A stretch of 64,000 nt of DNA from Hyphomicrobiales bacterium (GTDB taxonomy: Bacteria; Pseudomonadota; Alphaproteobacteria; Rhizobiales; Devosiaceae), in contig UCAU01000022.1 in the NCBI GenBank assembly GCA_900470445.1, forward strand, positions 1 through 64,000, in the 5' to 3' direction. The translations under genes and the position numbers were made by a program. A model generated the notes under the pieces. It ran no database searches, had not been told where the DNA came from, and saw only the letters and a program-made list of their open reading frames with translations. Positions 22,325-38,550 of the stretch are shown here, piece after piece; position 1 is the first letter of the stretch; the number at the start of each line of letters is the position of its first letter.

Positions 22325-24520
22325 ATGCCCTCGCTATCAAAGCAAATTACCTCCCTCTCACTCGTCCTCGCTGCCGCGCTAGTCATCGTGCTTGGCTCGT
22401 TCGGATGGTGGGCAGCGTCGCGTATAGATGACCGTTCGATGGCCCGGGAAACACGGGCGGTGCAGACAGGGCTTGGTGAAATTGCCGAACGTCTGCCAAT
22501 CGAACAGGACAGTTCCGCCATCTGGGACGATGCCGTTACGAATTTGCGCTCCAACGATGAAGCATGGATCGCTGAGAATTTGGCCGAGTGGATGAGCGAG
22601 TACTTCGGCCACAACCGGGTTTACATTCTTGATTCAGATAACCGCCTCGTTCGTGCTGTTGCGAATGGCAAACTTGTCAGTCCAGCAATGTTCGAGACGG
22701 ACCAAGCCGCAATCGCTCCTCTTGTTGGCGCTCTGAGGGCGCAAATGGCCTTAGCCTCGAAGGGATTGGCGAATTCAACTGAAGCTGTGACCGGAATGGG
22801 CGAGGAAGATCTCGCGGTGCTGGGCGATGGTACTCCCGCGATTGTAAGCGTGCGGCCCATCGTTCCAAGTACCGACGCAGTACCGCAAACCTCAGGGACA
22901 GAGTACCTGCACATTTCGATCCGCTTCATTGACAGCTCGGTGACTGCGGCGATCAGCGAGAAATTTGAGGTGAACGAACTCGCCTTTGAACGTGTCGCCC
23001 GGTCTGACGGCGATCGTATCGCCTCGCCCGTTCTATCGGCGGACGGGCGCATTGTTGGCTTTTTTACATGGACCCCGGATGAACCTGCCTACCAGCTAAT
23101 CAGAGAAACGGGACCCGCAGTTGCAGGTGGCGTGACGCTGGCCGCGTTGGCGGTCTTCCTATTACTGCGCCGGCTCCAGCGCACGTCAGTTCAACTCGAG
23201 AACAGCAAAGCGCATGCCTCGTTTCTGGCCTTTCACGACGCACTTACCAAGATACCCAATCGTGCATTATTCGAGGATCGGCTCGAACAGGCGCTGGCCA
23301 ACATGCGTAGAAACGGCTCTAAACTAGCGCTCCATTTCATTGATCTGGACCGCTTCAAGCATGTCAATGACACCTTGGGGCATCCTGCCGGCGACGATCT
23401 AATCCGCAAAGCAGCATCCCGCCTAACAGAGCTGGTGGATGATATTGATACGGTTGCACGGCTGGGGGGCGACGAGTTTGCAATTATCCAATTCGCGGTA
23501 GCCGATACGTCTGAAGCTCTCGCGCTAAGTCAAAAAATCGTCGATTCCCTGGCGTTGGCGTTCGACCTGAACGGAGGCCAAGTGCATGTCGGCGCCAGTG
23601 TTGGCGTCGTTGTTACCTCGAACATGGCAACGCAAGCCGAAGACCTGATGCGTCATGCCGATATCGCCTTGTATGAGGCCAAGGCTGGAGGGCGGGGTAA
23701 GTTCGAGCTTTTTGCGGACAATCTCGGCGAGGCTGTGCGCGACAAGCGGTTGCTTGAAACGGACCTGCGTGAAGCCTTGAACACCGGTGAAGGCTTGCAC
23801 CTAGTTTATCAACCGCTCCTGAACACCCGCGCCGGCGAAATCGCGGGCGTAGAGGCTTTAGTCCGCTGGCAACACCCCAGCCGCGGCAGGATGTCTCCGG
23901 CAGAGTTCATCGAGTTAGCGGAAGAACGCGGGCTGATCGATCAGTTGGGTATGTGGGTAATGCGGGAAGCCTGCCGCTTTGCCGCCTCATCCTCGGTGCC
24001 GTGGGTCGCCGTCAATGTCTCACCTATTCAGTTCCGTGACGAGCATTTTGCCAGAAGAGTTTTCAATCTTCTTGCTGAAACGGGGCTCCCGCCTAAGAGG
24101 CTGGAAATTGAAGTCACTGAGGGTCTACTGCTTCAGAACTCGCCCGTAGTCCAATCCACGTTGATGCTCTTGCGTGCTAAAGGCATCAGGGTAGCGCTGG
24201 ACGACTTTGGGACGGGCTATTCCTCAATTACCTATCTGCGCAATCACGGGGTGGACAAGCTCAAAATTGACCGGTCTTTCACAGCGCAACTGGGCCAAAA
24301 CGAAGAGATCGACAGTATCGTACGCTCCATTATTGATCTGGGACATGCAATGCGGATCGTGGTGGCCGCAGAAGGGGTGGAAACCGAAGATCAACGCGAA
24401 CTCTTGAGTGAAATGGGTTGTAACCAGTTGCAGGGTTTCCTGCTGTCGCACCCGCTCACACCCGAGAAACTTGAGCTTATGCTCCAGCGTTGGTTGCCGT
24501 CTAAGGCAAGAGAGGCCTAA
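22325..24520 (+). CDS. CHASE4-GGDEF-EAL membrane protein (c-di-GMP turnover)
   Basis: 731 residues. TM1 ~10-30; CHASE4-type periplasmic sensor ~35-255 (ARETRAVQTGLGEIAERLPIEQDSSAIWDDAV is typical); TM2 ~268-290; GGDEF domain ~305-470 with LGGDEF intact; EAL domain ~480-730 with GVEALVRW, NVSPIQF, DDFGTGYSS and VVAAEGVET all present. Both active sites look functional, so it may make and degrade c-di-GMP depending on its signal. Together with the smaller cyclase at 15769 and the exopolysaccharide locus downstream this suggests local control of sessile life, but no physical link is shown. Confidence 0.95.
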   Translation: MPSLSKQITSLSLVLAAALVIVLGSFGWWAASRIDDRSMARETRAVQTGLGEIAERLPIEQDSSAIWDDAVTNLRSNDEAWIAENLAEWMSEYFGHNRVYILDSDNRLVRAVANGKLVSPAMFETDQAAIAPLVGALRAQMALASKGLANSTEAVTGMGEEDLAVLGDGTPAIVSVRPIVPSTDAVPQTSGTEYLHISIRFIDSSVTAAISEKFEVNELAFERVARSDGDRIASPVLSADGRIVGFFTWTPDEPAYQLIRETGPAVAGGVTLAALAVFLLLRRLQRTSVQLENSKAHASFLAFHDALTKIPNRALFEDRLEQALANMRRNGSKLALHFIDLDRFKHVNDTLGHPAGDDLIRKAASRLTELVDDIDTVARLGGDEFAIIQFAVADTSEALALSQKIVDSLALAFDLNGGQVHVGASVGVVVTSNMATQAEDLMRHADIALYEAKAGGRGKFELFADNLGEAVRDKRLLETDLREALNTGEGLHLVYQPLLNTRAGEIAGVEALVRWQHPSRGRMSPAEFIELAEERGLIDQLGMWVMREACRFAASSSVPWVAVNVSPIQFRDEHFARRVFNLLAETGLPPKRLEIEVTEGLLLQNSPVVQSTLMLLRAKGIRVALDDFGTGYSSITYLRNHGVDKLKIDRSFTAQLGQNEEIDSIVRSIIDLGHAMRIVVAAEGVETEDQRELLSEMGCNQLQGFLLSHPLTPEKLELMLQRWLPSKAREA

Positions 24521-24743
24521 ACGTGGTAAGACTGCTGGACGCGCGTTGCCGGTGGACCGAAGACGGAGTGTCTGGAACGAATGGCAAGCCGATTGCCGTC
24601 GCGCTCCCGGTGCCGCAGCCAGGCGAGCGACCGAGGGCGTCGGCGTGACCGTCGGCAAATAGGCAAGCGAGCAAGGTTATTCACCTGCGAGACCATGGTC
24701 TTGTGCGCCGCTGATCTTGCAGGCTTAATGATAAGTGGCAAGA

Positions 24744-25757
24744 ATGACCGGTGACTGCATGCGGGATAATGAAGCGAGCCTAAATACGGACATTCCTGTC
24801 TACGCGCAGGCGAGCACCGAGGGACTGGGTCGCAACGCTTTCGAAATATGGCGCGATACGATCCTGTTCTTCTATGAGCCTGATCCTTGGCAGCCCGAAC
24901 ACGGAGAGTTTTTCGCATCGGGCCGCAGTCTTTTGTCTCAACAGGCCGACTTCGTAGCCTATCGATCTCGCTTGACCGGCGGGGTGAGGAATACCCGGCA
25001 ATTACATCAGGACGGGAACGAGGACATCAGCATAGGCCTGGTTTTCGAGGGAACGCGTCGGCACGATCTTTTTGATGACAGCCGGGCCGTCCAGCATTCT
25101 GGGCAGTTCTATGCCTATGACGCCAGTCGGCCCTCGCGTGTTCTTTGGAGCGATCATACGGCGGCCTATATGAATCTCCGTCGCAATGACGTTGCTAAGG
25201 CGTTCGGTGGGGAGGTTCCGGATGCAGCGGAAATCGGCAAGAGGCTCACCGCCTCGCGTCTCGCGCCTTTCGTTCGCAGCCACTTCGAGCTTCTGGCCAG
25301 TGGCATGGCGGAGATGGTTGGCCCCGAGCGCGCTATTGTTCTGGGGCAGACCAAGGCACTTCTCCTTTCGGCTCTCCAGAACCCGGAAGGCGGCGGCACC
25401 CCAGGATTCGGCGGGCTGCAGCCGAACGCCTTCTACGTGGCCGCCATGCGTTTGATCGAGAAAAACGTCTCGCGACCGAACTTGACGGCCGAGAGAATTG
25501 CCAAGTCGCTTGGATGTTCGCGTGCGACGCTCTACAGAGCGTTCGAGGCAGAGGGCCAGAATGTCGCCGATACCGTGACCCGAGCACGCCTGGCCCTCGC
25601 GCGATCCGTTATCCTGGCACCTCAGTCTCTTACCAATGAAACGATTGCCACGCTGTGCGGATATTCGGATGTTCGCACTTTCTATCGTGCCTTCCGTCTG
25701 CATTTCGGTGTGACTCCGGGGAAGATGCGCGCTGATGCATTGCGAGCACACCGCTAG
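24744..25757 (+). CDS. AraC family transcriptional regulator
   Basis: 337 residues. The first ~210 form an AraC-binding-like domain (FFASGRSLLSQQADFVAYRSRLTGG; QHSGQFYAYDASRPSRVLWSD). Residues ~230-335 are the double helix-turn-helix: LTAERIAKSLGCSRATLYRAFEAEG for the first and LTNETIATLCGYSDVRTFYRAFRLHFGVTPGKMR for the second. The frame starts at a GTG three codons earlier and a further ATG exists at 24759; ribosome binding sites are all weak. It lies just upstream of the autotransporter gene on the same strand, 164 bases apart, so control of that gene is possible but unproven. Confidence 0.9.
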   Translation: MTGDCMRDNEASLNTDIPVYAQASTEGLGRNAFEIWRDTILFFYEPDPWQPEHGEFFASGRSLLSQQADFVAYRSRLTGGVRNTRQLHQDGNEDISIGLVFEGTRRHDLFDDSRAVQHSGQFYAYDASRPSRVLWSDHTAAYMNLRRNDVAKAFGGEVPDAAEIGKRLTASRLAPFVRSHFELLASGMAEMVGPERAIVLGQTKALLLSALQNPEGGGTPGFGGLQPNAFYVAAMRLIEKNVSRPNLTAERIAKSLGCSRATLYRAFEAEGQNVADTVTRARLALARSVILAPQSLTNETIATLCGYSDVRTFYRAFRLHFGVTPGKMRADALRAHR

Positions 25758-25921
25758 TTTCTCGTTATCGTGAGACGGTTTGCCGCTGGCTTGAAACATC
25801 CTGTCATTGCCGAAGGTAGGAAGACCGACATTACTCGCCTCTAAGGCCATGCATCGATTCATCTTCTGGGTGGGGCACGGCCACGACTCTCTTTGCTTGG
25901 CAAGGAGAACTGGGGGCGTTG

Positions 25922-28690
25922 ATGCGTGGAGTTTGGCAAAAACTAGGCTTGGGCTCTGTGTTCTCGGCATCGAAACGGGGGCGTGGCACGAGGCGCCTGG
26001 GGACCATAATGGCCGGTGTGCTGATGGCGTGTGTCATTTCGCAGCCCGTCATGGCCGCCTCATCGGGTTGCAACGCTGTCGCAGGCGGCGTGCTCACCGC
26101 AACTGCGTTTGGGGCCGGTAACTTCTATGACTTTCGCCAAGGCGAAGCGATCCAGTTCAACAATCATCATGCCAGTGATCCATTAGACGCCAAAGTGGGC
26201 CTACCCAGTCCTTGGACAAGCATTCCTGCCGGGGGAAGCGTCACGCTTATCGTGCCGACAACGGCGAACCAGTATGTTGGCTGGGCGTTCAGCTCCACGA
26301 GCGGTTCAGTCTCGGCAACTTGCACAGCGCCTGCCGCACCCACGATAAGCGGTGTGTCCCCGGCAAATGGCCCGGCCACCGGGGGAACGTCAGTTACCAT
26401 AAGCGGCGCTGATTTTTTTGACGTATCAACCGTAATATTGGGGGGCAGGTCGGTCCCTTTCACCGTCGTCAATAACACAACGATCACATTGATCACGCCC
26501 CAGGCTGTTCCGGGCGCTACTACACTCGGAATCTATGCGTCAGCTGGCGGCGTTCAGAGATCCGCGGCGTTCACCTACGACGTCGTTCCCACCTCCATCA
26601 ATATCGACACATCGAGCCTCGACCCGGCAACTGGGACGCTGAGCGTGTCGGCGCGCGTCAGCGCAACGGGCGGGACACCCAGCGGAACGATCACGCTCCT
26701 TGTCAGCGGGACGGCGACAAGCCCAGTGACGCTTGATGCCAACGGCAAGGCAGACCTGACGGCAAGTGGCCTTGCTCCAGGGTCGCAGAATATTCAAGTT
26801 GCTTATTCGGGAGGCGGGCCGTTTGAAGCCTCGCAGATAACGTTCAGCCAGACTGTTCCACAACGTGCTGCGACAGTGGCATTGACCTCAACGCCCAACC
26901 CATCGGTTTTCGGTGTGGCGACAATCCTGACGGCGACCGTAACCGCCGCAGTCGATACGCCAACTGGCACGGTAACCTTTTATGATGGCAGCCAAGCTCT
27001 GGGCACCAGCGCATTAAACGGCGACATGGCCAGCCTCGAGATCGATTCATTTTCCTCTGGCGACCACAGTCTGACCGCAACCTACAACGGTGACTCTAAC
27101 CTGCAAGCCGCTACCGCCGCTCTCGCCCATACTGTGGGACGAGCCGCCACCACAATTTTGGTCAGCTCTTCAGCGAACCCAAGCACCTTCGGGCAGGACG
27201 TAACCTTCACCGCGCAGGTTCAAGCGCCGGTAGGTAGCCCGACAGGATCGGTGACATTCCTCGTTAATGGCGAGGAATTCGGCACCGCCGCGCTCGACAA
27301 TGGCATTGCCAGATATGCCACAAGCCAGCTCGGCGCCGGCAACCACAATGTCGTTGCACGATATGAAGGAAGCGCGGATTACGCAGGTTCGAACTCGTCC
27401 CCGCTCGCCCAGAATATCGCTGAGCTGGCGAACCTGGTCATCCGGCAGATGACGGAAGGCGCCGATGGTGCATTCGGCTTTGCAATCATGCCTTCAGCGA
27501 CCACTATTCTTGTCACCACAATGGCGGGACAAGGCCAGAGTGCACCTCTCGCCCTGCCCGCTGGGAATTATACGATCGTAGCCGATGACATGCGCGCGGC
27601 GGGATTCGGATTAACGGGCCTGGCCTGTACCGATCCCAATGGCGCCATCGACGTCGCGAGCCGCACGGCACGGATCACGCTTGCCCCTGGTGATGCGGTG
27701 ACTTGTACCTTTAGCGCACTGAACTCTGCCGAGATCACCTCGGCATTGATCGAAGACTTCATGGAGACCCGTGCCTCACTGCTGCTGGAGAGCCTTCCTG
27801 ACAGTTCACGCCGGGTCGGACGCCTGAATGGTTCAGTGGCTGGCAATATCAGTCCCGGATCGGTGCTGGCTTATCTCCCCGATATTGCATCCGGCTCCCA
27901 CTTGCCAGTGTCGGCCTCCCTTGCGACGCTCGATGCTCTGGCCGGGAACCGCCAACCCTCCCGTTTCGACGCATGGATCGAGGGTTCATTTGCCCTGTTC
28001 GATACCGACGTCGCCGGTGGGCAATTGAGCACGGTTGCGTTGGGCGCGGACTACCTCATCACTGATGATCTGCTGCTCGGCGCCTTTGCCCAGCTCGACG
28101 GCCTCAACCAATCTGCTGACATGGGGGCGGCGAAAATTGCGGGCGATGGTTGGCTTGCCGGCCCCTACGCGACTCTGCGTCTGACGGACAATCTTTTCCT
28201 CGACCTGATGGCGGCAGTTGGCGGGTCCACCAATCGCGTCTCTCCCTTTGGTACTTATACCGATGAGTTCAGTGCGGAACGGTATCTGTTGCGGGCGACA
28301 TTGGAAGGCAGTTGGACCTCAGGAGACTGGACCTTCTCACCGCGCGCCAGCATCGGCTATTTCGAGGAAACCTCGCAGAATTACACTGACAGCCTTGGAG
28401 TGACAGTCCCATCCGTCACGACTGGCGTTGGCAAGATCGCTCTCGGACCGGGGGTGACGTACAGGTTCCCAACTGGCGATGGCATCGCTACGGTCGCTGG
28501 AATCCGTCTGGATGGGATGGTCGACATTCGCGACGAGGGCGTTGCCAAACCGCATGCCGCTATCAACGCCCACGTCGATTTCGCACTCGATGCGGGCGCC
28601 CGGTTCGGCTTTGATCTCGGCTATGGTGGGCTGGGCTCTGACACGTCGTCGCTAAACGGAAAATTCCGCCTCGGCATTTCGATGGATTAG
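25922..28690 (+). CDS. autotransporter with TIG and tandem Ig-like domains (probable adhesin)
   Basis: 922 residues. Long signal peptide with basic extension, cleaved about after QPVMAA (~48). A short N-terminal region with a cysteine pair is followed by an IPT/TIG domain (~140-223: PTISGVSPANGPATGGTSVTISG). Then come three Ig-like repeats of the Big_3-type (~225-500) with the recurring TPSGTITLLVSG, TPTGTVTFYDGSQALG and SPTGSVTFLVNGEEFG strands. A linker ~505-640 precedes a C-terminal autotransporter beta barrel (~650-922: SRFDAWIEGSFALFDTD...DYLITDDLLLGAFAQLDG; last strand FRLGISMD). The barrel should export the Ig stalk to the cell surface. A TTG one codon upstream of the chosen ATG is possible. 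Confidence 0.9.
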   Translation: MRGVWQKLGLGSVFSASKRGRGTRRLGTIMAGVLMACVISQPVMAASSGCNAVAGGVLTATAFGAGNFYDFRQGEAIQFNNHHASDPLDAKVGLPSPWTSIPAGGSVTLIVPTTANQYVGWAFSSTSGSVSATCTAPAAPTISGVSPANGPATGGTSVTISGADFFDVSTVILGGRSVPFTVVNNTTITLITPQAVPGATTLGIYASAGGVQRSAAFTYDVVPTSINIDTSSLDPATGTLSVSARVSATGGTPSGTITLLVSGTATSPVTLDANGKADLTASGLAPGSQNIQVAYSGGGPFEASQITFSQTVPQRAATVALTSTPNPSVFGVATILTATVTAAVDTPTGTVTFYDGSQALGTSALNGDMASLEIDSFSSGDHSLTATYNGDSNLQAATAALAHTVGRAATTILVSSSANPSTFGQDVTFTAQVQAPVGSPTGSVTFLVNGEEFGTAALDNGIARYATSQLGAGNHNVVARYEGSADYAGSNSSPLAQNIAELANLVIRQMTEGADGAFGFAIMPSATTILVTTMAGQGQSAPLALPAGNYTIVADDMRAAGFGLTGLACTDPNGAIDVASRTARITLAPGDAVTCTFSALNSAEITSALIEDFMETRASLLLESLPDSSRRVGRLNGSVAGNISPGSVLAYLPDIASGSHLPVSASLATLDALAGNRQPSRFDAWIEGSFALFDTDVAGGQLSTVALGADYLITDDLLLGAFAQLDGLNQSADMGAAKIAGDGWLAGPYATLRLTDNLFLDLMAAVGGSTNRVSPFGTYTDEFSAERYLLRATLEGSWTSGDWTFSPRASIGYFEETSQNYTDSLGVTVPSVTTGVGKIALGPGVTYRFPTGDGIATVAGIRLDGMVDIRDEGVAKPHAAINAHVDFALDAGARFGFDLGYGGLGSDTSSLNGKFRLGISMD

Positions 28691-28973
28691 CCCCAAGCAG
28701 ATTTGCGTCCCGTATCAGCTGTGCAGTGCGTCACCGCCTTGTTCCGTAAGTCGGCGCTCTTCTGGGTAGCTGCCAAAATAGTTTGAGCAGAAGCCCCTTC
28801 GGTCGCACACTAGAGGCCGTAACCATCGTTTAGCTGGTGGCGGCCCACGCGACTATGGGGCGTAGACAGGCCGATTCAATTTTCCTTCGTTGAATCCTGC
28901 TCATTGCTGCCTTCGTCGCTACCGCGGTCACCCCGTCGCCTGGTGCCGCAATTGTTCTTCAACCGTTAACGCA

Positions 28974-31496
28974 ATGGCACCTACGATGCTGTCGGTTGCT
29001 GAAACTGTCGTGAGAGACCAGAAAATGATGCCGGTCATCAACATGATCGAAAGTGCCTCGGTCGTCATTCTGGCTGTGCTTTTCATTGCTTTCCTTGGTG
29101 ACCGTCTTGATCGTTCCTTCTGGGCCAAAAGCATCGTTTTTGGGATCGTATTCGGAGGCACAGGACTGATCAGCATGGCCTCTCCGGTGGAACTCGCCTC
29201 TGGCTTTTTCGCCGATGGACGCAACGTCGTCATGGCATTCTCTGGCGCCATTGGCGGGCCCATAAGCGCCCTGGTCACGGCCGCGGTGCTTTCCGGCATG
29301 CGGATGAGTTTGGGGGGCGCAGGTCTCCCCTCGGCCTTTGCCGGCATCTGGTTGGTCGCTGCTGCTTCATCTGCGCTTTGGGGATGGCTTCACATCAGAG
29401 GGCAGCAGCGCCTCGCCCCGAAACATGTGCTCATCCTGGCGATATTAGCCGCGTTTCTTCCACCTCTGGGCCTGTGGATAGTGCATGCGGCGCCAAGTGC
29501 CGAAATATTCGGTAAGCTCATAATATTGATTGTCCCGACAAATTTTGTCGGTGTTCTCCTTCTCGGTTTTCTGATCATCAACGAACAGCAGCGCCGCTGG
29601 GCGCTCATGGCTTATTCCGAAAGCCAGGCTCAGTTGCAGGCGATCGCCAACAACGCGCCGGGTGTTTTGTTTCAACTTTTTACAGACAGCGAAGGCATCG
29701 GTCGCTTCTCGTATGTGTCCGGAGGCGCGGAGCGCGTCCTGGGCGTGCCGGCACAGGACATTGTCAGCAGCCCTGGCACCATCTCACGCATGATTTCGCA
29801 AGAGGCGCTGGCCACAATTCAGCGCCATCTCAAGCATTCCACCGAAACGCACCGTGCCTGGTCCCATGAGGTTGAATTCACCAAGCCCGATGGCGAGAAA
29901 GTGTGGATGCGCGCCGCGGCAGAACCGCGGTTCGACATTCATGGACACCTCGTTTGGGACGGCTCACTTTTTGACATTACGGAGCGCAAACGCAGCGAGC
30001 AGATGAAGAACGACTTCATCTCGACGGTAAGCCATGAACTCAGAACACCACTCACCTCGATCCGCGGGTCACTGGGACTGGTCGCCGCGGGCGCAGCCGG
30101 TGAGCTACCACCGAAAGTCGCTGGGCTGATCAAGATCGCCCACTCCAACAGCGAACGCCTGGTCCGGCTCATCAACGACATTCTGGACATTGAGAAGATC
30201 GAGTCTGGCCACATGCCGTTCGATCCCCGACCAATGGCGCTCAGGCCGCTCATCGAGCAGTCGATCGAGGGCAGCCGCGACTATCTCACCGAAAGCAATG
30301 TCCGGATCGCACTCAACGACAAGGCTCTGGGCGCGATGGCTTCGGTCGATCCGGATCGGCTGCATCAGGTGATGGTCAATCTGCTCTCCAATGCAGTGAA
30401 GTACTCGCCGCGAGACGGCGAAGTGATCGTGCAACTGGAACGGAACGGAGACGCGGTTCGAATTTCCGTGATTGATCGCGGCCCCGGCATCCCCCAGGCG
30501 TTCCGGTCGAGGATTTTTGGAAAATTTGAACAGGCGGACGCGTCCGATTCCCGGCAAAGGGGCGGAACTGGACTGGGTTTGAGCATTGCCAAGGCGATCG
30601 TGGACAGGCTGGGCGGTGCAATTTCCTTCGATACCGGGCCTGACACGGGAACGTCGTTTCATGTGGACCTTCCAGAAATTGCGGAAGATCGGCCCTTGAG
30701 CACCCAGGAGGCGGGCCCGCTCGGCGACGGGACGGCGCCCCGGCGTGTGCTGATCGTCGAAGACGAACCAGACATTGCCGCCATCATTGCCGTTGCCCTT
30801 CTTCAGGAGGGACTTCAGAGCGACATCGCCCCTGATGTTGAAACGGCAAAAAATATGCTCGCGAGCAAACGCTACGTTGCGATGACGCTCGACCTGAAAC
30901 TCCCAGGTCAGTCAGGAGTCGCCCTTTATGGACATCTGCGTGCTACCGCCAACGGCCTGGATTTGCCCGTTATCGTGATTTCCGCCTTCATAGACGAGGC
31001 TCGCAGATCCCTGAACGGGTCGGCGCTCGGTATTGTCGACTGGCTGGAGAAGCCAATAGACGTTGCTCGATTGCGCGCCGCGATCGAGAAAATCCGAGAC
31101 GGCGCATACAGTCGGATGCCCACGGTGCTCCACGTCGAAGACGACGAAGACATGCTGACGGTAATGTCGGCGGGTCTCGGCCAAGATATCGCGATCACCT
31201 TCGCTCGGAATGTGCAGGAGGCACGGTTCGAACTCCAGCAGAAGCGCTTTGACCTTGTCATCCTGGACCTGACTCTTCCTGACGGATCCGGAGCGGACCT
31301 TTTGAGGGCCATCCCCAGCGGCACCCCGGTAATCATATTGTCAGCATCAGAAGTCGACGAGCATTTGGCTGCGACAGTTACTGCGGCGGTAACGAAAACC
31401 AGGACGTCGGAGATCGCGATAGCCGAACTCGTTCGAAGGCTGACCATGAAGCACGCCGGCGTTGAGATCCCTGCCCTACCACAGCAAAAAGGATAG
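28974..31496 (+). CDS. hybrid histidine kinase with LytS-type membrane sensor and two receiver domains
   Basis: 840 residues from the ATG at 28974; the frame opens at a TTG (28890) and an ATG at 29025 directly before the first helix is also possible. An N-terminal 5TM-5TMR_LYT-like module (~20-200, with ISALVTAAVLSGMRMSLGGAGLPS) is followed by PAS (~215-340), HisKA with FISTVSHELRTPLTSIRG, HATPase with N box VNLLSNAVKYSP and G boxes DRGPGIP and GGTGLGLSIAK. Two receivers follow: the first with VEDEPD, acceptor Asp in TLDLKLPGQSG and Lys in EKPID; the second with VEDDED and Asp in ILDLTLPDGSG. First gene of a tight operon; four bases separate its stop from the next ATG. Confidence 0.92.
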   Translation: MAPTMLSVAETVVRDQKMMPVINMIESASVVILAVLFIAFLGDRLDRSFWAKSIVFGIVFGGTGLISMASPVELASGFFADGRNVVMAFSGAIGGPISALVTAAVLSGMRMSLGGAGLPSAFAGIWLVAAASSALWGWLHIRGQQRLAPKHVLILAILAAFLPPLGLWIVHAAPSAEIFGKLIILIVPTNFVGVLLLGFLIINEQQRRWALMAYSESQAQLQAIANNAPGVLFQLFTDSEGIGRFSYVSGGAERVLGVPAQDIVSSPGTISRMISQEALATIQRHLKHSTETHRAWSHEVEFTKPDGEKVWMRAAAEPRFDIHGHLVWDGSLFDITERKRSEQMKNDFISTVSHELRTPLTSIRGSLGLVAAGAAGELPPKVAGLIKIAHSNSERLVRLINDILDIEKIESGHMPFDPRPMALRPLIEQSIEGSRDYLTESNVRIALNDKALGAMASVDPDRLHQVMVNLLSNAVKYSPRDGEVIVQLERNGDAVRISVIDRGPGIPQAFRSRIFGKFEQADASDSRQRGGTGLGLSIAKAIVDRLGGAISFDTGPDTGTSFHVDLPEIAEDRPLSTQEAGPLGDGTAPRRVLIVEDEPDIAAIIAVALLQEGLQSDIAPDVETAKNMLASKRYVAMTLDLKLPGQSGVALYGHLRATANGLDLPVIVISAFIDEARRSLNGSALGIVDWLEKPIDVARLRAAIEKIRDGAYSRMPTVLHVEDDEDMLTVMSAGLGQDIAITFARNVQEARFELQQKRFDLVILDLTLPDGSGADLLRAIPSGTPVIILSASEVDEHLAATVTAAVTKTRTSEIAIAELVRRLTMKHAGVEIPALPQQKG

Positions 31497-31500
31497 GCAG

Positions 31501-31890
31501 ATGCAGACATTTCGCGTGCTTTATGTCGATGACGAGGCGGACATTAGAGAGGTCGCCACGATGTCGCTCGCGCTAGACCCTGCCCTCGAGGTCCAGGATT
31601 GTGCCTCGGGCCAACAGGCGCTGGGTGTCGCCGCGCTCTGGCAGCCTCACCTCATTCTGCTCGACGTCATGATGCCTGAAATGGACGGTCCGCAAACCCT
31701 GGCGCAACTAAGAGCAGCCAACCAAACGCGAAGCATTCCGGTCGTATTTATCACCGCCAGAACGCAGGCCTATGAGATCGAACGTTTTCTGTCTTTGGGG
31801 GCAATTGGAGTTATTGCCAAACCCTTCGATCCTATGGCGCTCGCAGCGCAGACCCGGCGCTATCTGGACGGGCGAGCCAGTGAGCGGTGA
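31501..31890 (+). CDS. single-domain response regulator (first)
   Basis: 129 residues, a stand-alone receiver: acidic pair D10/D11, phosphoacceptor D55 (LILLDVMMPEMDG), switch T85 and K107 (IAKPFDP). No output domain, so it acts as a phosphate shuttle or by protein contact. The ATG at 31501 follows AAGGAT; the frame is open 13 codons further up, into the kinase gene. Its TGA overlaps the GTG start of the next gene (GTGA). Confidence 0.92.
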   Translation: MQTFRVLYVDDEADIREVATMSLALDPALEVQDCASGQQALGVAALWQPHLILLDVMMPEMDGPQTLAQLRAANQTRSIPVVFITARTQAYEIERFLSLGAIGVIAKPFDPMALAAQTRRYLDGRASER

Positions 31891-33545
31891 GAGCCGTGGG
31901 CAGTCGGAGGCTTGGGCTGCCGATCTTGTTCACCGCGCTGGCGCTGGTTTCTGGCAACGCCGCTGAGACGCCGGCAATGAAACACGGCGAGCCATTAGCA
32001 CTTTGGAGCCGATCTATAGCGGTGCCGACACCCGTACCGCCACGCATCACCATAGAAGGTGTCGAGGTCGACGGCCGCTTTGTGCCGCACGCCGCCAACA
32101 TCGATTATGACGGGGGAGAACAAGCCCCCAAGACTGCGCTGCCGCTTGGCGAGAACCTTGTTGGCCGCCTCCAGCCACGGCCTTTCGGCCGGGAGGAACG
32201 CGTGGAGGCCGTGTGGTCCGGGAAGAGCCTGGCAGTTCATTGCAGGGCGGGGCGCGCCCCCGCTGGCGTTGTTCTCGAAACCGGGTCCGCCCATTTTCCA
32301 CGCGGAGCGAGCCTGACGCTCGCCGTCGCAGGCCTTGGTTCCACCGAACCGCTTGGGCTGTCGGTTGTCCAGCGGGGCGCCGATGCGCCTACACCCTGGC
32401 AGGCGCAGATTGGCGCCGATACCAGGCTCAATCTGCAGCTTTCTGCGAGCCTTGGCCAAGCTGAGGCTTATCGAGATGTCGTAATCAGCTGCCCGCCTGG
32501 GGAGGGCAGCTTTAGGCTGGACTCCATCAGCTTGGAGCCTAGCCGGCCGGCTAGCCGGGCTTCGGGCGTCGGAACATGGCTCTGGACGTCCGAGACATGG
32601 CTTGCTCAGCCAGGGCAAATCGAAGACTGGGCCGTGGCTGCGCAACTCGACCGCGTGTTTCTGCAACTGAAGATTGCCAATGGAGAGGTATCGGACAGCC
32701 CTGCCCTCGCCAATCTGGTGAGCCGTCTCCGCAAGCGAGGTATCTCGGTTCATGCGGTTGAGGGTGATCCGGCAATGGTAACGACCGGCGGTCTCAACAA
32801 TGCGCTTCGGCGCGTTGTCGCGATCCGCCGCTATCAAGTTTCCGCTCAACCGGATACCCGCCTCGGCGGTCTGCAATTCGACATCGAGCCTTATCTTCTG
32901 GCCGATTTCGCGCGCGATCCCCCTGCAGCTTGGAGCCAGTGGGCGGAAGCGATCCACTCGCTTTCCTCGGCGTGGGGCGAGGCAGTGTCGGTGGTTGTCC
33001 CATTCTGGATGCTGAATTCCGAAGCCGGGACAGCGGCGGCGGCAGCGGCGCGTCCGGTGGTTTCCGACCTTACGGTGATGGCATACCGAACCCAGATCGG
33101 CGAGGTGACGACGGTGAGCGAGCCATGGCTCGATTGGGGAACACGCAACGATGTTGCAGTCAGGATCGCCATCGAAAATGGCCCTCTCGACGTCGAAGTC
33201 CACCGCACCTTTGTGCGCGCAGAAACCGGGAGCGTGCTGCTGAAAATGGACGGCAGGGTGGGAACGATCACGCTACTTTCGGAACCGGTCAATGCCGGCC
33301 AAAGTACTCTGGCATACGCATTTCACCAGGAAACGCGTATTAATCCGGCCCGAATCAGCTTTATGAATGACAGTGCTAAACTAGCGGTCGCGCGCGCTAA
33401 GCTCGCGCAACTCTTCGTTGCCTGGCCATGCTTTGATGGCCTCATGATCCACGCACTAGATGCTTCGGATCACGATCTTGGGCGCGCACCCCCGACACCG
33501 GAGGCCAGAGCCAATGACTCCCAAGCACCGGATACTGATTTGTGA
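31887..33545 (+). CDS. secreted TIM-barrel-like protein, possible glycoside hydrolase
   Basis: 552 residues starting at a GTG that overlaps the preceding stop. A basic and then hydrophobic N-terminus (RRLGLPILFTALALVSGNAA) is a signal peptide. Residues ~50-220 look like beta-rich carbohydrate-binding modules. Residues ~228-430 resemble a TIM barrel: GTWLWTSETWL (~229), LDRVFLQLKIANGEV, RKRGISVHAVEGDP, then GLQFDIEPY (D332, E334) and SDLTVMAYRT (~394). The DxE pair plus a following MAY strand recalls GH18-like hydrolases. The catalytic role is inference. Placed between two response regulators inside a glycosyltransferase operon, it could trim or bind the polymer, much as PgaB does in PNAG systems. 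The last 32 bases overlap the next gene. Confidence 0.72.
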   Translation: MRAVGSRRLGLPILFTALALVSGNAAETPAMKHGEPLALWSRSIAVPTPVPPRITIEGVEVDGRFVPHAANIDYDGGEQAPKTALPLGENLVGRLQPRPFGREERVEAVWSGKSLAVHCRAGRAPAGVVLETGSAHFPRGASLTLAVAGLGSTEPLGLSVVQRGADAPTPWQAQIGADTRLNLQLSASLGQAEAYRDVVISCPPGEGSFRLDSISLEPSRPASRASGVGTWLWTSETWLAQPGQIEDWAVAAQLDRVFLQLKIANGEVSDSPALANLVSRLRKRGISVHAVEGDPAMVTTGGLNNALRRVVAIRRYQVSAQPDTRLGGLQFDIEPYLLADFARDPPAAWSQWAEAIHSLSSAWGEAVSVVVPFWMLNSEAGTAAAAAARPVVSDLTVMAYRTQIGEVTTVSEPWLDWGTRNDVAVRIAIENGPLDVEVHRTFVRAETGSVLLKMDGRVGTITLLSEPVNAGQSTLAYAFHQETRINPARISFMNDSAKLAVARAKLAQLFVAWPCFDGLMIHALDASDHDLGRAPPTPEARANDSQAPDTDL

Positions 33546-33906
33546 CGACGACCCGCTGTTGATCGAGCTGATGAGTTTTCGTCTCAAGGCGAAAGGGTTC
33601 GACGTGCTCACGGCCATGGACGGGGTGGAAGCGCTTGCCAAGATTGCGAGCGAACAACCATCCTTGGTCGTGCTCGACGCAATGATGCCGCGCCTGGACG
33701 GCTTCGAAGTGCTCTCGCGGATGAAGGCCGATGCCGCCGTATCACATATTCCCGTTATCATGCTGACCGCTCGCAAGGGCGAAAGGGACATTGTTTCGGC
33801 GCTGGAACGGGGTGCGGACGACTACTTGGTCAAACCGTTCATTCCCGAGGAACTGCTTGCCCGCCTTTCCAAGCTTCTCGCACGGCAAGCTCCGAGGCAA
33901 TTATGA
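33514..33906 (+). CDS. single-domain response regulator (second)
   Basis: 130 residues, receiver only: DDD at 11-13, phosphoacceptor D55 (VVLDAMMPRLDGFE), T85 and K107 (LVKPF). The start is fixed by GGAGG at normal distance before the ATG at 33514, inside the 3' end of the preceding gene. It overlaps the next gene by ATGA. The GADDYLVKPF ending is PleD/DivK-like. With the receiver at 31501 and the kinase's two, the operon encodes four receivers. Confidence 0.93.
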   Translation: MTPKHRILICDDDPLLIELMSFRLKAKGFDVLTAMDGVEALAKIASEQPSLVVLDAMMPRLDGFEVLSRMKADAAVSHIPVIMLTARKGERDIVSALERGADDYLVKPFIPEELLARLSKLLARQAPRQL

Positions 33907-35552
33907 CCATAGGGCGCTGCCTGAACCTTGTCCTGCTCGCTGGAGTTCTGGCAATCGCCAGCGGTGGAAAGGTCTTCGCCCAGACAGCAGACGAGCTTTA
34001 TCGAGATGGGCAGAGCGCGCGGATGGAACAGCGCTTTGACGATGCTGTTTCGCTTCTGGAGCGCGCCAGGATTCTTGATCCCGGCAATGCAGATATACTG
34101 GTGCAACTGGGCTTTGCCCAATTGGGCCTTGGCAACAGCAGCGCCGCCCGCCAAGCGTTCCAGCAGGCGCTGGCGATTGCCCCCTCCTATCAGGATGCCC
34201 GGTTCGGGCTGGCGCAGATAGTGTTCAGAAGCGGTAATCTTGCCGAAGCGCGCAGGCTGACCGAAATCGTGCTTGGCGCGCAGCCCGATTATGGTGAGGC
34301 CAAGCAATTGCGCGCCTCGATAGTGGCTGCAGAAGCGAGCAAGGTGAACCCGCCCGTGCGATCGGGCGCCACAAGTCAATCAGTCGGAGGGACCAAGCCT
34401 GCCCCGAGCCAGTTGGAGATCACGCTTGTACAGGCGCAAAAGCTGCGCGGAGAGGCTCGCTTTGCGGAAGCCGAGGCGCTCTATCGCGACGCATTGGCGT
34501 TATCCCCCGGCAATGCCGACGTCCTCGTTGCTCTCGGCCAGGTCGCTGGATTTCAGCAGAAATTCAAAGAGGCGGAGGGCTTCTTCAGGGCGGCGCTCGA
34601 GCGCGCGCCGGATTACCTTGATGCAAGTCTCGGGCTTGCCCGCCTGGCGCTACAGCGTGGCGATCTGGCCGGGGCCAAGGAGCGGTTTGAGGCCGTTCTG
34701 GAACGTGAGCCAGACAATATCGAGGCGCTGGTCGGCCTGGGCGACACATATCGTGCTGGTGGAGACGATGCGGCGGCCCGAATTCGTTATGACACCGCGC
34801 TAACGCTTGAGCCGGGTTCGGCCGATATACAGCAGCGCCTGGACCAGCCAATGCCAAGGAAATGGCGGGTCGACATCGGCACAGAGGTCAGCGCCCTTAC
34901 GGGGGGAAGGCTGCCATGGACGGATAGCTCGATTGCGCTATCCTACGCCCTGCAGCCAGCAACGACAATCGGCGGCCGCCTACGCGTCGGCACACGGTAT
35001 GGCGAAACTGACACGCAGATCGAGGTGCGTGTTGACCATGCGTTCTCGGAAGACTTTTCTGCCTACGGCATAGTGGCCGCCACGCCTGACGCCGATTTCC
35101 TGGCGCGTTTTTCCCTTGGCGGGGGAGCATCCTGGCGAGCCCAAATGCCTGGTGGCCCATTGGGGCCACTACTCTTTACCCTGGACGGACGGCACGACGT
35201 TTTCCACGACACATCGGTGACTACCATTTCTCCGGCTGTGCAGTACTTCTTCCTGGACGAACGGTTGGGATTACAGGTCCGCTGGATACACTCCGTCGAT
35301 GCCGAAGGGATTTCGGCCAACGGCTTCGCAGTGCGCGCCGAATTGGCCGCGACGGACAAGCTGCGCTTGGTTGCGGGATACAGCGACGCTCCAGAAGTTT
35401 CCGACGGCTCACAGATCGCCACCCAGACGGTGTTCGCAGGAATTTCCTACGACCTTTCGGATGCCGTCACCCTGCGGGCGAATTACGCCCACGAACACCG
35501 CGACGCCTTTGAGAGCGATACTATCGGGCTCGGCCTAGCGGTCAGGTTCTGA
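33903..35552 (+). CDS. TPR protein with YaiO-type outer-membrane beta barrel
   Basis: 549 residues. Signal peptide 1-26 (ending KVFA-QT). Two blocks of tetratricopeptide repeats: ~29-140 (AVSLLERARILDPGNADILVQLGFAQLGLGN...) and ~170-315, split by a Ser/Pro/Ala-rich linker. From ~330 to the end come alternating amphipathic strands ending in Phe (IGLGLAVRF), the sign of an outer-membrane barrel of the YaiO family (TIGR04390). A periplasmic TPR scaffold fused to an outer-membrane pore is the design of PgaA and related polysaccharide exporters, so export of the product of the downstream glycosyltransferase is the natural reading. Confidence 0.87.
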   Translation: MTIGRCLNLVLLAGVLAIASGGKVFAQTADELYRDGQSARMEQRFDDAVSLLERARILDPGNADILVQLGFAQLGLGNSSAARQAFQQALAIAPSYQDARFGLAQIVFRSGNLAEARRLTEIVLGAQPDYGEAKQLRASIVAAEASKVNPPVRSGATSQSVGGTKPAPSQLEITLVQAQKLRGEARFAEAEALYRDALALSPGNADVLVALGQVAGFQQKFKEAEGFFRAALERAPDYLDASLGLARLALQRGDLAGAKERFEAVLEREPDNIEALVGLGDTYRAGGDDAAARIRYDTALTLEPGSADIQQRLDQPMPRKWRVDIGTEVSALTGGRLPWTDSSIALSYALQPATTIGGRLRVGTRYGETDTQIEVRVDHAFSEDFSAYGIVAATPDADFLARFSLGGGASWRAQMPGGPLGPLLFTLDGRHDVFHDTSVTTISPAVQYFFLDERLGLQVRWIHSVDAEGISANGFAVRAELAATDKLRLVAGYSDAPEVSDGSQIATQTVFAGISYDLSDAVTLRANYAHEHRDAFESDTIGLGLAVRF

Positions 35553-35553
35553 C

Positions 35554-36591
35554 ATGCTCTTCTTTATTTGGACATTGTCGATCGTGATGGGACTAAGCGC
35601 GCTGGCGATCATGGTCGTGCTGATCGCGCTAAGGATGGTTCACGAGAGACGCAGCGCACGCAACGAGATCCTCAGCCGAAAATTGACTGCGTCCCTGATC
35701 CGCTTCAGCGAGGATGGGGAGCGGCAGGCACTAGCCTCGGTGCTCGAGGAAATACCTCCAACCATCGTGATCGATTCCGGGTTTGAATTCCTGTCACTGC
35801 TGCGTGGAGATGAGCGCCGCAAGATCGAAGAAGTTTTCGGTGCAACGCATTTGCCAGATTTCGTCCGCCGCCGGCTGCGCAAAGGCAATGAAGCCGAACG
35901 CATCCATTGCGCCGAGATCCTCACCGCGTTTCCCGGGGCTGGCAGCACGGACGCTCTGCTTGAAGCACTCGTCGATCACTCATCGGAAGTACGCATCGCC
36001 GCAGCAATTTCCCTGAACGCGCTTGGCGCACTTCCGCCGCTGCAAAACGTGTTCCGATTGATAGGTTCGAAGAGCCTGCGCTCCCGTCGCCTGATCGATT
36101 TGTTCGAAAGCCTGCCCACGGATCGCAGGAGCGAGCTGCTCGCCACTGCGCTGCAGCAGGACGCCTCCCCTTTTGCCAGAGCCGCGGCCATAGAGGCGCT
36201 CTCGCGCTCGGGTGACTATAGCTTCGTGGGTGAGTTGGAAGACCTGGCCCGCGATCCATCGCCTGAGGTCGCGGCGAGCGCCCTTCGCGCTCTTGGCCGA
36301 TCCGCTCATCCGGCGGCCGCAGAAACGGTGCTTGCAAGCTTGGAAAACCCCGACTGGGAGGTGCGCCGGGAGGCCGCTGAAGCCGCCGGCCGCATCGGCA
36401 TCCCTGCGGCAGTAGAGACATTGATTTCGCTACTTGGAGATAGCGAGTGGGCCGTTCGCTATGCAGCGGGGAATGCCCTCAAGGAGATCGGAGCCTCCGG
36501 CATGGAAGCGCTTCAACGAACGGCGAAGGAGGAGGCGTCCCGCGGCCAGCGTACCGCCTCGCTCATACTATCCGAGGGACTGACAGCATGA
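35554..36591 (+). CDS. membrane-anchored HEAT-repeat protein
   Basis: 345 residues. One N-terminal membrane helix (~3-27), then a helical region and at least five HEAT/PBS-lyase-type repeats (~110-335), best seen as LEDLARDPSPEVAASALRALGRS, LENPDWEVRREAAEAAGRIG and LGDSEWAVRYAAGNALKEIG. With only one helix and a basic first loop (RMVHERRSARNE) the repeats are probably cytoplasmic. HEAT repeats bind proteins, so it may tie a receiver domain to the glycosyltransferase. It begins one base after the barrel gene and overlaps the glycosyltransferase start by ATGA. Confidence 0.88.
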   Translation: MLFFIWTLSIVMGLSALAIMVVLIALRMVHERRSARNEILSRKLTASLIRFSEDGERQALASVLEEIPPTIVIDSGFEFLSLLRGDERRKIEEVFGATHLPDFVRRRLRKGNEAERIHCAEILTAFPGAGSTDALLEALVDHSSEVRIAAAISLNALGALPPLQNVFRLIGSKSLRSRRLIDLFESLPTDRRSELLATALQQDASPFARAAAIEALSRSGDYSFVGELEDLARDPSPEVAASALRALGRSAHPAAAETVLASLENPDWEVRREAAEAAGRIGIPAAVETLISLLGDSEWAVRYAAGNALKEIGASGMEALQRTAKEEASRGQRTASLILSEGLTA

Positions 36592-38012
36592 CCGGCATTT
36601 GGCATGATCTGCTGCTCGGTACGGCTGGTGTGATCGCGTGGGTAGTAATCGTATTCGGGCTGATCCAGACTGTTATATACCTTCTGCAACTCGTGATTGC
36701 CGCTTACGCCCTCTCCAAGCGGCCGCCTGTCGCTCGATCGAGCCTGCTGTGGCATCGATATAGCGATATTGCGCCACCGATCTCACTGATCGTACCTGCC
36801 TACAACGAGCAGATAAATATCGTCGAGAGCGTCCATTCCATGCTGGCGCTCGAATATCCCGCTTACGAGGTCATTGTCGTCAATGACGGGTCCAAAGACG
36901 AGACGCTGAAGCGAATGATCGAGGCCTTCGAACTGGTACCTGTCCAGCGGTCGTTCGAGGAGACGCTCAAGCATGAACCGATCAGGGGAATCTACGCCTC
37001 GTCACGGTCTGATCGATTATTCGTCGTGGATAAATCCAATGGCGGCAAGGCCGATGCTCAGAATGCGGGCATCAACGTTTGCCGAGCACCGATCTTTTGC
37101 GTCATCGACGGGGATTCAATCCTCGAACCCGACGCGTTACTGCGTGCAGTGCAGCCATTCATCGAAGACCCAGAACGCACAATCGCGGTCGGCGGCACCA
37201 TCCGCATCGCGAACAACTCGACGATTGAAAGCGGACGCGTAAAGACCATCCGCCTTCCCAACAAGATTCTACCTCTTTTTCAGGTGGTCGAATATCTGCG
37301 CGCATTTCTCATGGCGCGCCTAGCCTGGAGCCAGGTCAACACGCTCATGCTCGTTTCTGGAGCATTCGGTGTGTTCCGGCGGCGCGAGGCCGTCGCTGTA
37401 GGCGGATTCACCAAAGGTTCAATGGGGGAAGACCTCGACTTTGTGATCAAGCTTCACCGGTACATGTTGGACAACAAAAAAGAGTATCGCATCGAATTCA
37501 TCCCGGAACCTGTCTGCTGGACCGAGGCACCGGAGACCCTGGCGGTGCTGGCCCGTCAGCGGTCACGCTGGCAGCGCGGATCGCTGGAAGCCTTCTTCCG
37601 CTATCGCGGCATGTTGTTCAATCCTCGATACGGCCGTGTCGGCTTCCTCGGTTTTGGGCATATTCTGATCGTGGACGTGCTGGGCCCAATTATGGAGGTG
37701 CTCGGCTACATTCTTATGCCGCTCTTCTGGCTCACTGGGGTGCTTTCGGGCGAAAGCCTGCTTGCTTACACGGCACTGGTATTCGTTTACGGCGTCTTCG
37801 TCAGCGTTGCTTCATTAATCCTGGAGGAACTCGAACTGAAGCGCTTCCCGCGTCCGCGGGATCTCGCCATCCTGACCCTGGCTGCCGTTGCGGAAAATTT
37901 CGGCTACCGGCAGATTAACAATTTCTGGCGCGTCAGGGGCTATTGGCAATATCTGCGGGCCGACACCAGTTGGGGCGAAATGACCCGAACGGGGTTCTCA
38001 AAGCAAGAGTGA
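36588..38012 (+). CDS. family 2 processive glycosyltransferase (polysaccharide synthase)
   Basis: 474 residues. N-terminal membrane helix (~12-40); GT-A domain ~64-345 with ISLIVPAYNEQINI, NDGS (D100), the DxD motif DGD (174-176), catalytic GED (ED at 281-282) and QRSRW (QxxRW, 324-328); then three or four C-terminal helices (~345-440). This is the layout of PgaC/BcsA-type inner-membrane synthases that polymerise and extrude a beta-linked glycan. The start is the ATG inside the HEAT gene's stop; the open frame above it is a shadow. No PilZ domain is seen, so c-di-GMP control, if any, would be indirect. The sugar is unknown. Confidence 0.93.
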   Translation: MTGIWHDLLLGTAGVIAWVVIVFGLIQTVIYLLQLVIAAYALSKRPPVARSSLLWHRYSDIAPPISLIVPAYNEQINIVESVHSMLALEYPAYEVIVVNDGSKDETLKRMIEAFELVPVQRSFEETLKHEPIRGIYASSRSDRLFVVDKSNGGKADAQNAGINVCRAPIFCVIDGDSILEPDALLRAVQPFIEDPERTIAVGGTIRIANNSTIESGRVKTIRLPNKILPLFQVVEYLRAFLMARLAWSQVNTLMLVSGAFGVFRRREAVAVGGFTKGSMGEDLDFVIKLHRYMLDNKKEYRIEFIPEPVCWTEAPETLAVLARQRSRWQRGSLEAFFRYRGMLFNPRYGRVGFLGFGHILIVDVLGPIMEVLGYILMPLFWLTGVLSGESLLAYTALVFVYGVFVSVASLILEELELKRFPRPRDLAILTLAAVAENFGYRQINNFWRVRGYWQYLRADTSWGEMTRTGFSKQE

Positions 38013-38018
38013 CATCGA

Positions 38019-38321
38019 TCATTGTGGCGCGCCGGAGACCACCTCCAACGCGTCGATCAGGCGATCCAGCGCGGCGTTAGTCTGATCGTCGGTCTTGCCT
38101 TCGATCAGCATGGTCTCGACTTCAAATGCGGTACTGCTGATTTCGGGGAAACCGAGCGTTCCGCCGGTGCCTGCCAGCGAATGCGCAATCCCCAACAACG
38201 CTGACATTGCTTCCGCATCGTCACGATACGCCCTGGACGCCCTCAACGCGCTCAGGCGGGCTAGATCACCACGGCACCGTTCAGCAAAGCGTTTTCGGAT
38301 CTGGTCCAGGGGGTCGGTCAC
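38019..38321 (-). CDS. histidine phosphotransfer (Hpt) protein
   Basis: 100 residues. ALLGIAHSLAGTGGTLGFPEIS holds the Hpt signature with the phosphoryl-accepting His47. It is a single Hpt domain with four-helix bundle composition. It is convergent with the glycosyltransferase gene, six bases between stops. It is the only free Hpt in the window and lies beside an operon containing a hybrid kinase and two free receivers, so it probably carries phosphate from the kinase's receivers to the stand-alone ones. No promoter could be recognised. Confidence 0.88.
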   Translation of the reverse strand: MTDPLDQIRKRFAERCRGDLARLSALRASRAYRDDAEAMSALLGIAHSLAGTGGTLGFPEISSTAFEVETMLIEGKTDDQTNAALDRLIDALEVVSGAPQ

Positions 38322-38550
38322 CGGCGAGCTCCATAAATGGCGGTTCTCATCTAACGACCATGGCGACAGCTCGTTTTGAGGTCAACGTCATGCCGCCGCC
38401 TGTTTCCATGATCGAGATTGGCCGACGGTTCACCACTGTACAATGGTCCATGAGGCGGATCAGGGTTTTCGCTTCGCCAAGGCTAACTGTCCCGCTTGCT
38501 CGCGGGACTTGAAAATTAGCATCCAACAATTGCCAATTGCCGCCGCCTAC

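Follow-up and report, generated by a model that had tools for sequence, protein, structure and literature searches.

A receiver–HEAT–glycosyltransferase core in a candidate exopolysaccharide cluster of a Devosiaceae bacterium and its wide linkage across prokaryotes

The 64,000-nucleotide stretch of Hyphomicrobiales bacterium (Devosiaceae) DNA analyzed here, referred to below as the window, carries at 28974–38321 eight genes whose domain content suggests a polysaccharide system of the synthase-dependent kind, equipped with kinase, receiver and Hpt phosphotransfer genes of its own. A sequence-only reading of the window had proposed such a system, and all eight genes that it had named are present at the coordinates it gave; scans of the eight proteins with Pfam and NCBIfam, whose listed matches underlie all domain calls given here, assigned families to all of them but the C protein. 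The plus strand begins with an 840-residue hybrid sensor kinase (28974–31496) in which 5TM-LYT, PAS, HisKA, HATPase and two receiver domains score above cut-off (PF07694, PF08447, PF00512, PF02518 and two stretches of PF00072), followed by a stand-alone receiver, REC1 (31501–31890; 129 residues; PF00072, 84 bits), by the C protein (31887–33545), which has an exported-looking N-terminal region and a predicted C-terminal (beta/alpha)8 glycosidase-like domain at about residues 226–552, and by a second stand-alone receiver, REC2 (33514–33906; 130 residues; PF00072, 104 bits). REC2 heads a block of receiver, outer-membrane barrel, HEAT and synthase genes and has an equal position in alphaproteobacterial loci. 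The barrel protein (33903–35552; 549 residues) combines TPR families with a YaiO region matching TIGR04390 over positions 1–230 of 230 at 134.4 bits (cut-off 32), and the HEAT-repeat protein (35554–36591; 345 residues; PF13646, 105 bits against a cut-off of 27.7) starts with a hydrophobic stretch that is probably a membrane helix. The last gene on this strand encodes a family 2 glycosyltransferase (GT2) of the processive polysaccharide-synthase type (36588–38012; 474 residues; PF13641 and PF00535), with DGSxD, DxD, GED and QxxRW motifs and no PilZ domain. Convergent with it on the minus strand, and separated from it by 6 bp, lies the gene of a 100-residue Hpt protein (38019–38321; PF01627, 42 bits against 24.6), so that the abutting Hpt gene of the sequence-only reading is where it was placed. 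The same reading held that no gap or overlap exceeds four bases. This is true of the kinase/REC1 junction (4-bp gap), of the REC1/C, REC2/TPR and HEAT/GT2 junctions (4-bp overlaps) and of the TPR/HEAT junction (1-bp gap), but not of the C and REC2 genes: with the ATG at 33514 as the REC2 start, they share 32 bp.

What is conserved most widely at this locus is the combination of receiver, HEAT and GT2 genes, which is also present in archaea and in monoderm bacteria. The genes of the cluster occur together beyond close relatives of the host, but in the wider set the presence of barrel, C protein, kinase and Hpt depends on the lineage, and the core is older than had been assumed. Our wide scan used one genome per species, and the 80 loci named here are the best 80 of at least 446 relatives; they span 14 named phyla and one unassigned record, with 77 bacterial and three archaeal loci. 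A seed HEAT profile drawing on the window and six plasmid loci, all seven of which lie outside the 80, matches the gene upstream of GT2 in 68 of the 80 loci, with L062 and L088 among those that escaped it. Natural fusions of HEAT to GT2 occur in five of the 80, in Bacillota and Spirochaetota, and match a second HEAT profile (HEAT2) at E values of 1.8e-15 to 8.4e-5. By HEAT2 a HEAT gene lies within 5 kb in 78/80 loci, a figure that is circular because members of the 80 supplied the profile; independently of it, 63 of 76 HEAT proteins, fusions included, match Pfam HEAT_2 at E 1e-3. Among the 80 are also a locus that begins at GT2 (L055), one that is cut (L049), one with no HEAT near (L084) and two, L086 and L089, with the order HEAT-GT2-GT2. 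Among the plasmid loci, the archaeon Salinirubellus has the order REC-HEAT-GT2 and Deinococcus TPR-HEAT-GT2, and HEAT-GT2 also occurs in Emticicia, Paenibacillus and Erythrobacter. A HEAT gene next to or fused with a GT2 of the family defines membership of the proposed receiver–HEAT–GT2 class, and the window cluster has such a gene. For the barrel, the alphaproteobacterial YaiO profile misses other lineages, and of ten hand-picked proteins seven match TIGR04390. In Bacillota HEAT-GT2 loci we also observed apparently secreted proteins of about 1,000 residues without a Pfam match (L008:3740-6841, L033:4686-7733 and L041:10378-13545).

Searches among genomes of the order, phylum and family of the host give the same association. 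A GT2 profile from a seven-sequence alignment, with a match threshold of E 1e-60, finds the synthase in 12/397 genomes of the order, 15/398 of the phylum and 7/136 of the family, where, as in all our genome profile searches, the best 4–5 candidates per genome were scored. We collected the neighborhoods of all 23 distinct matches from the order and phylum samples other than the host's own. GT2 reaches at least 292 bits in 20 of these. In all 20 a HEAT gene on the same strand ends no more than 30 bp from the GT2 match, and in 19 a gene with a receiver domain lies at most 6 kb away, in one case on the other strand. The three loci with GT2 at 211–239 bits have neither HEAT (0/3) nor any other profiled gene nearby and serve as an unplanned control. 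A test set beforehand was whether the gene set would fail to be kept outside close relatives; all eight gene kinds are present in one other family of the order, with the kinase gene moved downstream (L123, L124), seven occur in the window order in a third family, with only Hpt not detected (L120, L121), and Mesorhizobium ciceri has the gene set without the C gene. The gene series REC2-barrel-HEAT-GT2 is present again in other families, both within the order and elsewhere in the class, and the cluster is more than a chance arrangement. The second such test, whether HEAT is usually found without a synthase, was addressed with a profile from eight alphaproteobacterial HEAT proteins (E <=1e-15), which matches 13/397 genomes of the order, ten of them strongly (E <=3.6e-44) and three partially (1.9e-17 to 3.0e-20). 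The ten strong genomes are the same ten in which GT2 reaches at least 577 bits (the HEAT and GT2 samples, both of 397 genomes with the same handles, being taken as identical), and several of the ten share a genus and hence are not independent. No strong HEAT match was found in the other two GT2 genomes of the order (232 and 238 bits), and none of the window type was found without a synthase among the scored candidates of the 397 genomes.

By its motifs and the fold modeled for a relative, the window GT2 is best described as a processive-type synthase. DxD, ED and QxxRW are all present, and QxxRW is kept in 86 of 87 family sequences. In a FastTree phylogeny the 87 family GT2s split from E. coli PgaC, YaiP and BcsA with a support of 89 on long outgroup branches. 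A candidate family-specific spacing and motif was dropped, the spacing being constant in the family but similar in two of the three outgroup GT2s and the motif occurring in 50/87. Of 71 unfused HEAT partners, 67 have an N-terminus whose hydrophobicity would suffice for a membrane helix. The 967-residue natural HEAT-GT2 fusion of L073 was modeled with a predicted local distance difference test (pLDDT) score of 91.3 and a predicted template-modeling score (pTM) of 0.85. With two equal halves a loose arrangement would be expected to give a pTM well below this value, and a fixed arrangement is therefore predicted. In structural comparison the GT2 half matches best a protein with a mannosyltransferase annotation (Z 27.3), and it aligns with hyaluronan synthases at Z 22.5–25.7 and with cellulose synthases at Z 19.3–23.4. 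All eight cellulose-synthase alignments among the matches listed start at L073 residues 12–23, within the HEAT N-terminal helix (residues 3–50), and the hyaluronan-synthase alignments begin at residue 458 or later, which suggests that the HEAT membrane helix may fill the place taken in BcsA by that enzyme's own helices. The five natural fusions and the high scores of this model lend indirect support to the predicted HEAT-GT2 contact.

The relay domains of the window (HisKA and HATPase, receiver, Hpt) all score above their Pfam cut-offs and together form the domain set of a multistep phosphorelay. All four receiver domains, that of REC1 included, keep the aligned phospho-acceptor aspartate, and one is aligned with serine at the conserved lysine. 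Across the wide scan, 68 of the 80 loci have a gene with a receiver domain, hybrid kinases counted, at a distance of at most 5 kb, and in 44 such a gene immediately precedes HEAT, with a receiver density of 0.32–0.42 per kb at 1–4 kb upstream vs about 0.02 beyond 5 kb. When four plasmid loci are added to the 80, 69 of the 84 have a same-strand, non-kinase receiver gene at most 3.8 kb upstream or 0.5 kb downstream. The phospho-acceptor aspartate is present in 62 of 78 receiver domains near the synthases, and glutamate takes its place in 12. This glutamate, as if locking the receiver in its active state, was noted in Bacillota and Spirochaetota loci L025, L028, L034, L035, L038, L051, L068, L069 and L073. 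Some locus receivers are fused to Hpt, GGDEF or ODP domains; Pfam matches GGDEF in five receiver proteins, four of which lack the motif itself. One such protein, an ODP-GGDEF-receiver chain in Sphaerochaeta (L068:5559-7568), lies directly upstream of a HEAT-GT2 fusion, and by eye a Clostridium protein (L051:5307-7349) resembles it; we take ODP to be a di-iron oxygen-sensor type of domain.

No Pfam or NCBIfam family (E 0.1) and no Protein Data Bank sequence (E 1) matches the C protein. An AlphaFold2 model of its C-terminal domain (pLDDT 62, pTM 0.68) shows eight strands in order, alternating with helices. The top Foldseek rows are non-glycosidase triose-phosphate isomerase (TIM) barrels (a monooxygenase and methylenetetrahydrofolate reductases), followed by chitinases; after structural re-alignment the best matches are mostly glycosidases, with many families tied at Z 15–17, and by these two methods the domain is not assignable to a single glycosidase family. 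D332, E334 and E430 (D107, E109 and E205 of the domain) are invariant in 11 sequences and lie where strands 4 and 7 end, presumably the catalytic places of glycoside hydrolase clan GH-A. Profile iteration within HEAT-GT2 loci recovered homologues in Devosia, in three other groups of Alphaproteobacteria, in one further Pseudomonadota genome and in loci of Elusimicrobiota and Paenibacillus/Neobacillus. At the genome level, two of 136 family genomes have the C protein, both together with GT2. In the 398-genome phylum sample there are three strong matches, all in GT2 genomes that had contributed rows to the profile; the other 395 gave no strong match, and a single weak one (55.7 bits) falls in a genome without GT2.

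The cluster belongs to a presence/absence segment of 13,986 bp (24504–38489) on a contig of 105,976 bases from a 4.8-Mb genome in which, at E 1e-10, it holds the only GT2 of the family. A same-species genome has 981 bp in its place, between flanks that are 97–99% identical, and carries neither the window-type GT2 nor the C protein, so that the pair offers a natural test strain with and without the segment. By eye, the 981-bp empty site (L175) contains two small genes resembling a PIN-type toxin-antitoxin pair. Upstream of the kinase gene the segment also encodes an AraC-type regulator and a 923-residue autotransporter adhesin with TIG and Big_3_5 domains (24735–28690). A syntenic copy of the cluster lies on a 515-kb plasmid of Devosia sp. 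A8/3-2, a genome marked as belonging to the same genus as the window, which is accordingly taken as Devosia; there homology resumes at window position 28833, just before the kinase gene, and the eight genes stand without the adjoining adhesin and AraC genes. In the deposited sequence of this copy (L004:9617-18248) the genes for kinase, TPR protein and GT2 are split or short, for which assembly error or decay are possible explanations.

Taken together, these data make it probable that the window encodes a synthase-dependent exopolysaccharide system with a receiver–HEAT–GT2 core, in which HEAT would be a subunit of the synthase and phosphorylated REC2 would gate the enzyme in place of cyclic di-GMP (c-di-GMP) and PilZ. 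The GT2 would polymerize a sugar nucleotide at the cytosolic face and thread the chain through its own membrane channel, while HEAT would be anchored by its N-terminal helix packed in the membrane part, with its solenoid in the cytosol. PgaD, which packs into the membrane part of PgaC, offers an analogy for this helix. In Devosia the signal would enter at the LytS-type hybrid kinase and may pass through its own receivers and Hpt to REC2, which in its phosphorylated form would dock on HEAT and switch the synthase. The TPR/YaiO protein would then carry the chain across the outer membrane, and the C protein may trim it in the periplasm. Since GT2 lacks PilZ and neither REC1 nor REC2 has an output domain, the simplest route leads from phosphate to REC2, then to HEAT and then to GT2. 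The domain set speaks for the step to REC2 and the fusions and model for that from HEAT to GT2, while the contact of REC2 with HEAT is one we infer purely from the linkage of their genes. Archaea and monoderms have no outer membrane, and because Salinirubellus and many Bacillota loci keep both receiver and HEAT with GT2, the two most likely serve the inner-membrane synthase. Somewhat less likely than not is the broader proposal that receiver–HEAT–GT2 constitutes a pan-prokaryotic synthase class, either predating the divergence of many phyla or widely spread among them, in which the synthase is completed by a membrane HEAT protein and a receiver docked on HEAT switches the enzyme directly by two-component phosphorylation, a post-translational control in parallel to c-di-GMP and PilZ.

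Several observations weigh against this phosphorylation-gated arrangement. In twelve of the 80 loci, of which some are on short contigs, the 5-kb surroundings contain no receiver, and a kinase lies within 5 kb in 27/80 and Hpt in 6/80, counts obtained with insensitive profiles built from the window (for Hpt with one more sequence); kinase and Hpt genes are thus not universal, and the widely shared core does not include the complete relay. Sixteen of the 78 receiver domains lack the phospho-acceptor aspartate, ten of them in Bacillota or Spirochaetota, and phosphorylation is therefore not universal. No receiver-HEAT fusion occurs among the open reading frames of the searched loci. As for the fusion model, two chondroitin-polymerase alignments start at residue 170, inside the HEAT solenoid, so that the alignment starts may be chance; the aligned ranges are first and last residues only, and the L073 alignment is faulty, with 15 HEAT-only rows put on the GT2 half and the HEAT half resting on five sequences. 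Directly outside the left end of the segment, moreover, a CHASE4-GGDEF-EAL gene (22325–24520) is a possible source of c-di-GMP input. In a rather unlikely but serious rival account, HEAT is a plain structural subunit for synthase folding or stability and the receivers control something else nearby, such as motility, the barrel or transcription through a partner, their linkage reflecting joint use in attachment. HEAT is indeed steadier than the receiver (78 against 68 of 80 loci within 5 kb, by a HEAT2 profile made partly from these loci), kinase and Hpt genes are often not close, and the Erythrobacter locus is placed among flagellar genes. This account sits poorly, however, with the clustering of receivers at HEAT-GT2 in both bacteria and archaea, directly before HEAT in those 44 loci and likewise in Salinirubellus.

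The nature of the product bears on two further explanations, which are not all mutually exclusive with the first or with receiver gating. It is improbable, though compatible with such gating, that what GT2 lengthens is a glycolipid of the cell surface and not a free polymer, with a nearby or fused lipoteichoic acid (LTA)-synthase-like domain adding a phospho-group in Bacteroidota. A Sulfatase/LTA-synthase-like domain is fused to GT2 in L047 (8971–12396) and is found elsewhere in loci L019, L032 and L081 (Bacteroidota, Bdellovibrio and Elusimicrobia, taken together), and the mannosyltransferase annotation belongs to the top structural match of the GT2 half, but in both motifs and fold GT2 agrees with processive, channel-forming synthases, and BcsG-like phosphoethanolamine transfer acts on free cellulose as well. 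The domain at these loci is in itself a hint of a phospho-decorated polymer. Very improbable, in our assessment, is a remote operon for poly-beta-1,6-GlcNAc (PGA) that has lost or replaced PgaD and the PgaB deacetylase and makes a poly-N-acetylglucosamine-like polymer under c-di-GMP control. PgaC_IcaA is the closest curated synthase model, the TPR part matches PgaA weakly, and the fold matches of the C domain include the PgaB C-terminal domain (Z 15.1, root-mean-square deviation 4.0, 240 aligned), tied with many other glycosidases. The synthase nevertheless reaches only 149.4 of the 422.3 bits demanded by the PgaC equivalog TIGR03937 and the TPR part 64.5 of the 366.65 bits of the PgaA equivalog TIGR03939, neither PgaD nor a deacetylase is among the matches listed, and E. 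coli PgaC falls with YaiP and BcsA outside the 87-sequence family. The resemblance of synthase, barrel and secreted protein to PgaC, PgaA and PgaB that had been pointed out is therefore one of layout and not of family. A cellulose operon fares no better, with 52.1 against 699.1 bits for the BcsA/CelA equivalog TIGR03030, and on these missed cut-offs both operon types were rejected.

The preferred reading, gating of the synthase by a receiver docked on HEAT, would matter beyond Devosia. For the best-known polymer synthases of bacteria the switch is c-di-GMP, and a second general switch would then exist in diderms, monoderms and archaea, with a HEAT partner nearly always and a receiver mostly present, uniting many genes now separately annotated as 'HEAT repeat', 'response regulator' and 'glycosyltransferase'. 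The wide receiver–HEAT–GT2 linkage suggests that phosphorelay switching of surface-polymer production is common among prokaryotes and, within the literature searched, not yet described. A full-text search of the open-licence PubMed Central literature found no published description of the combination among the matches listed. Three loci or genes that it brought up were rejected: the Zetaproteobacteria sfz stalk cluster (PMC8250860) and the Rubrivivax Emb/psc loci (PMC3684757) for different genes and the HEAT gene of PMC10434189 as unrelated, in each case as far as the parts of these articles consulted describe them.

Compared with known systems, the window cluster shares with PgaABCD an inner-membrane GT2, a TPR-barrel outer-membrane protein, a probably exported protein with a predicted TIM-barrel, glycosidase-like domain and a small membrane partner of the synthase, but has HEAT and receivers where PgaD and the deacetylase would be expected. 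With BcsABC it shares the processive GT2 fold, as seen in the fusion model (Z 19.8–23.4 to BcsA), and the logic of a TPR-barrel exporter, while PilZ, BcsB and BcsZ are not among the matches listed for its proteins; the absences named by the sequence-only reading (PgaD, BcsB, PilZ and a deacetylase) are borne out within these matches, and HEAT and receivers are, as it said, additions found in neither Pga nor Bcs. The sfz cluster is likewise a GT2-based candidate exopolysaccharide locus but, in the portions of PMC8250860 consulted, has a BcsB-like subunit and an EpsE-like GT2 N-terminus, with no HEAT-repeat protein mentioned there. The E. coli yaiP-yaiO-yaiS genes pair a GT2 with a YaiO barrel, but have no HEAT, receiver, kinase or Hpt annotated in their stretch, and YaiP lies outside the GT2 family. 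Finally, HisKA, receiver, Hpt and free receivers recall phosphorelays of the RcsC, ArcB and BarA type; unlike these, the eight genes include no DNA-binding output protein, and the output would be the synthase itself.

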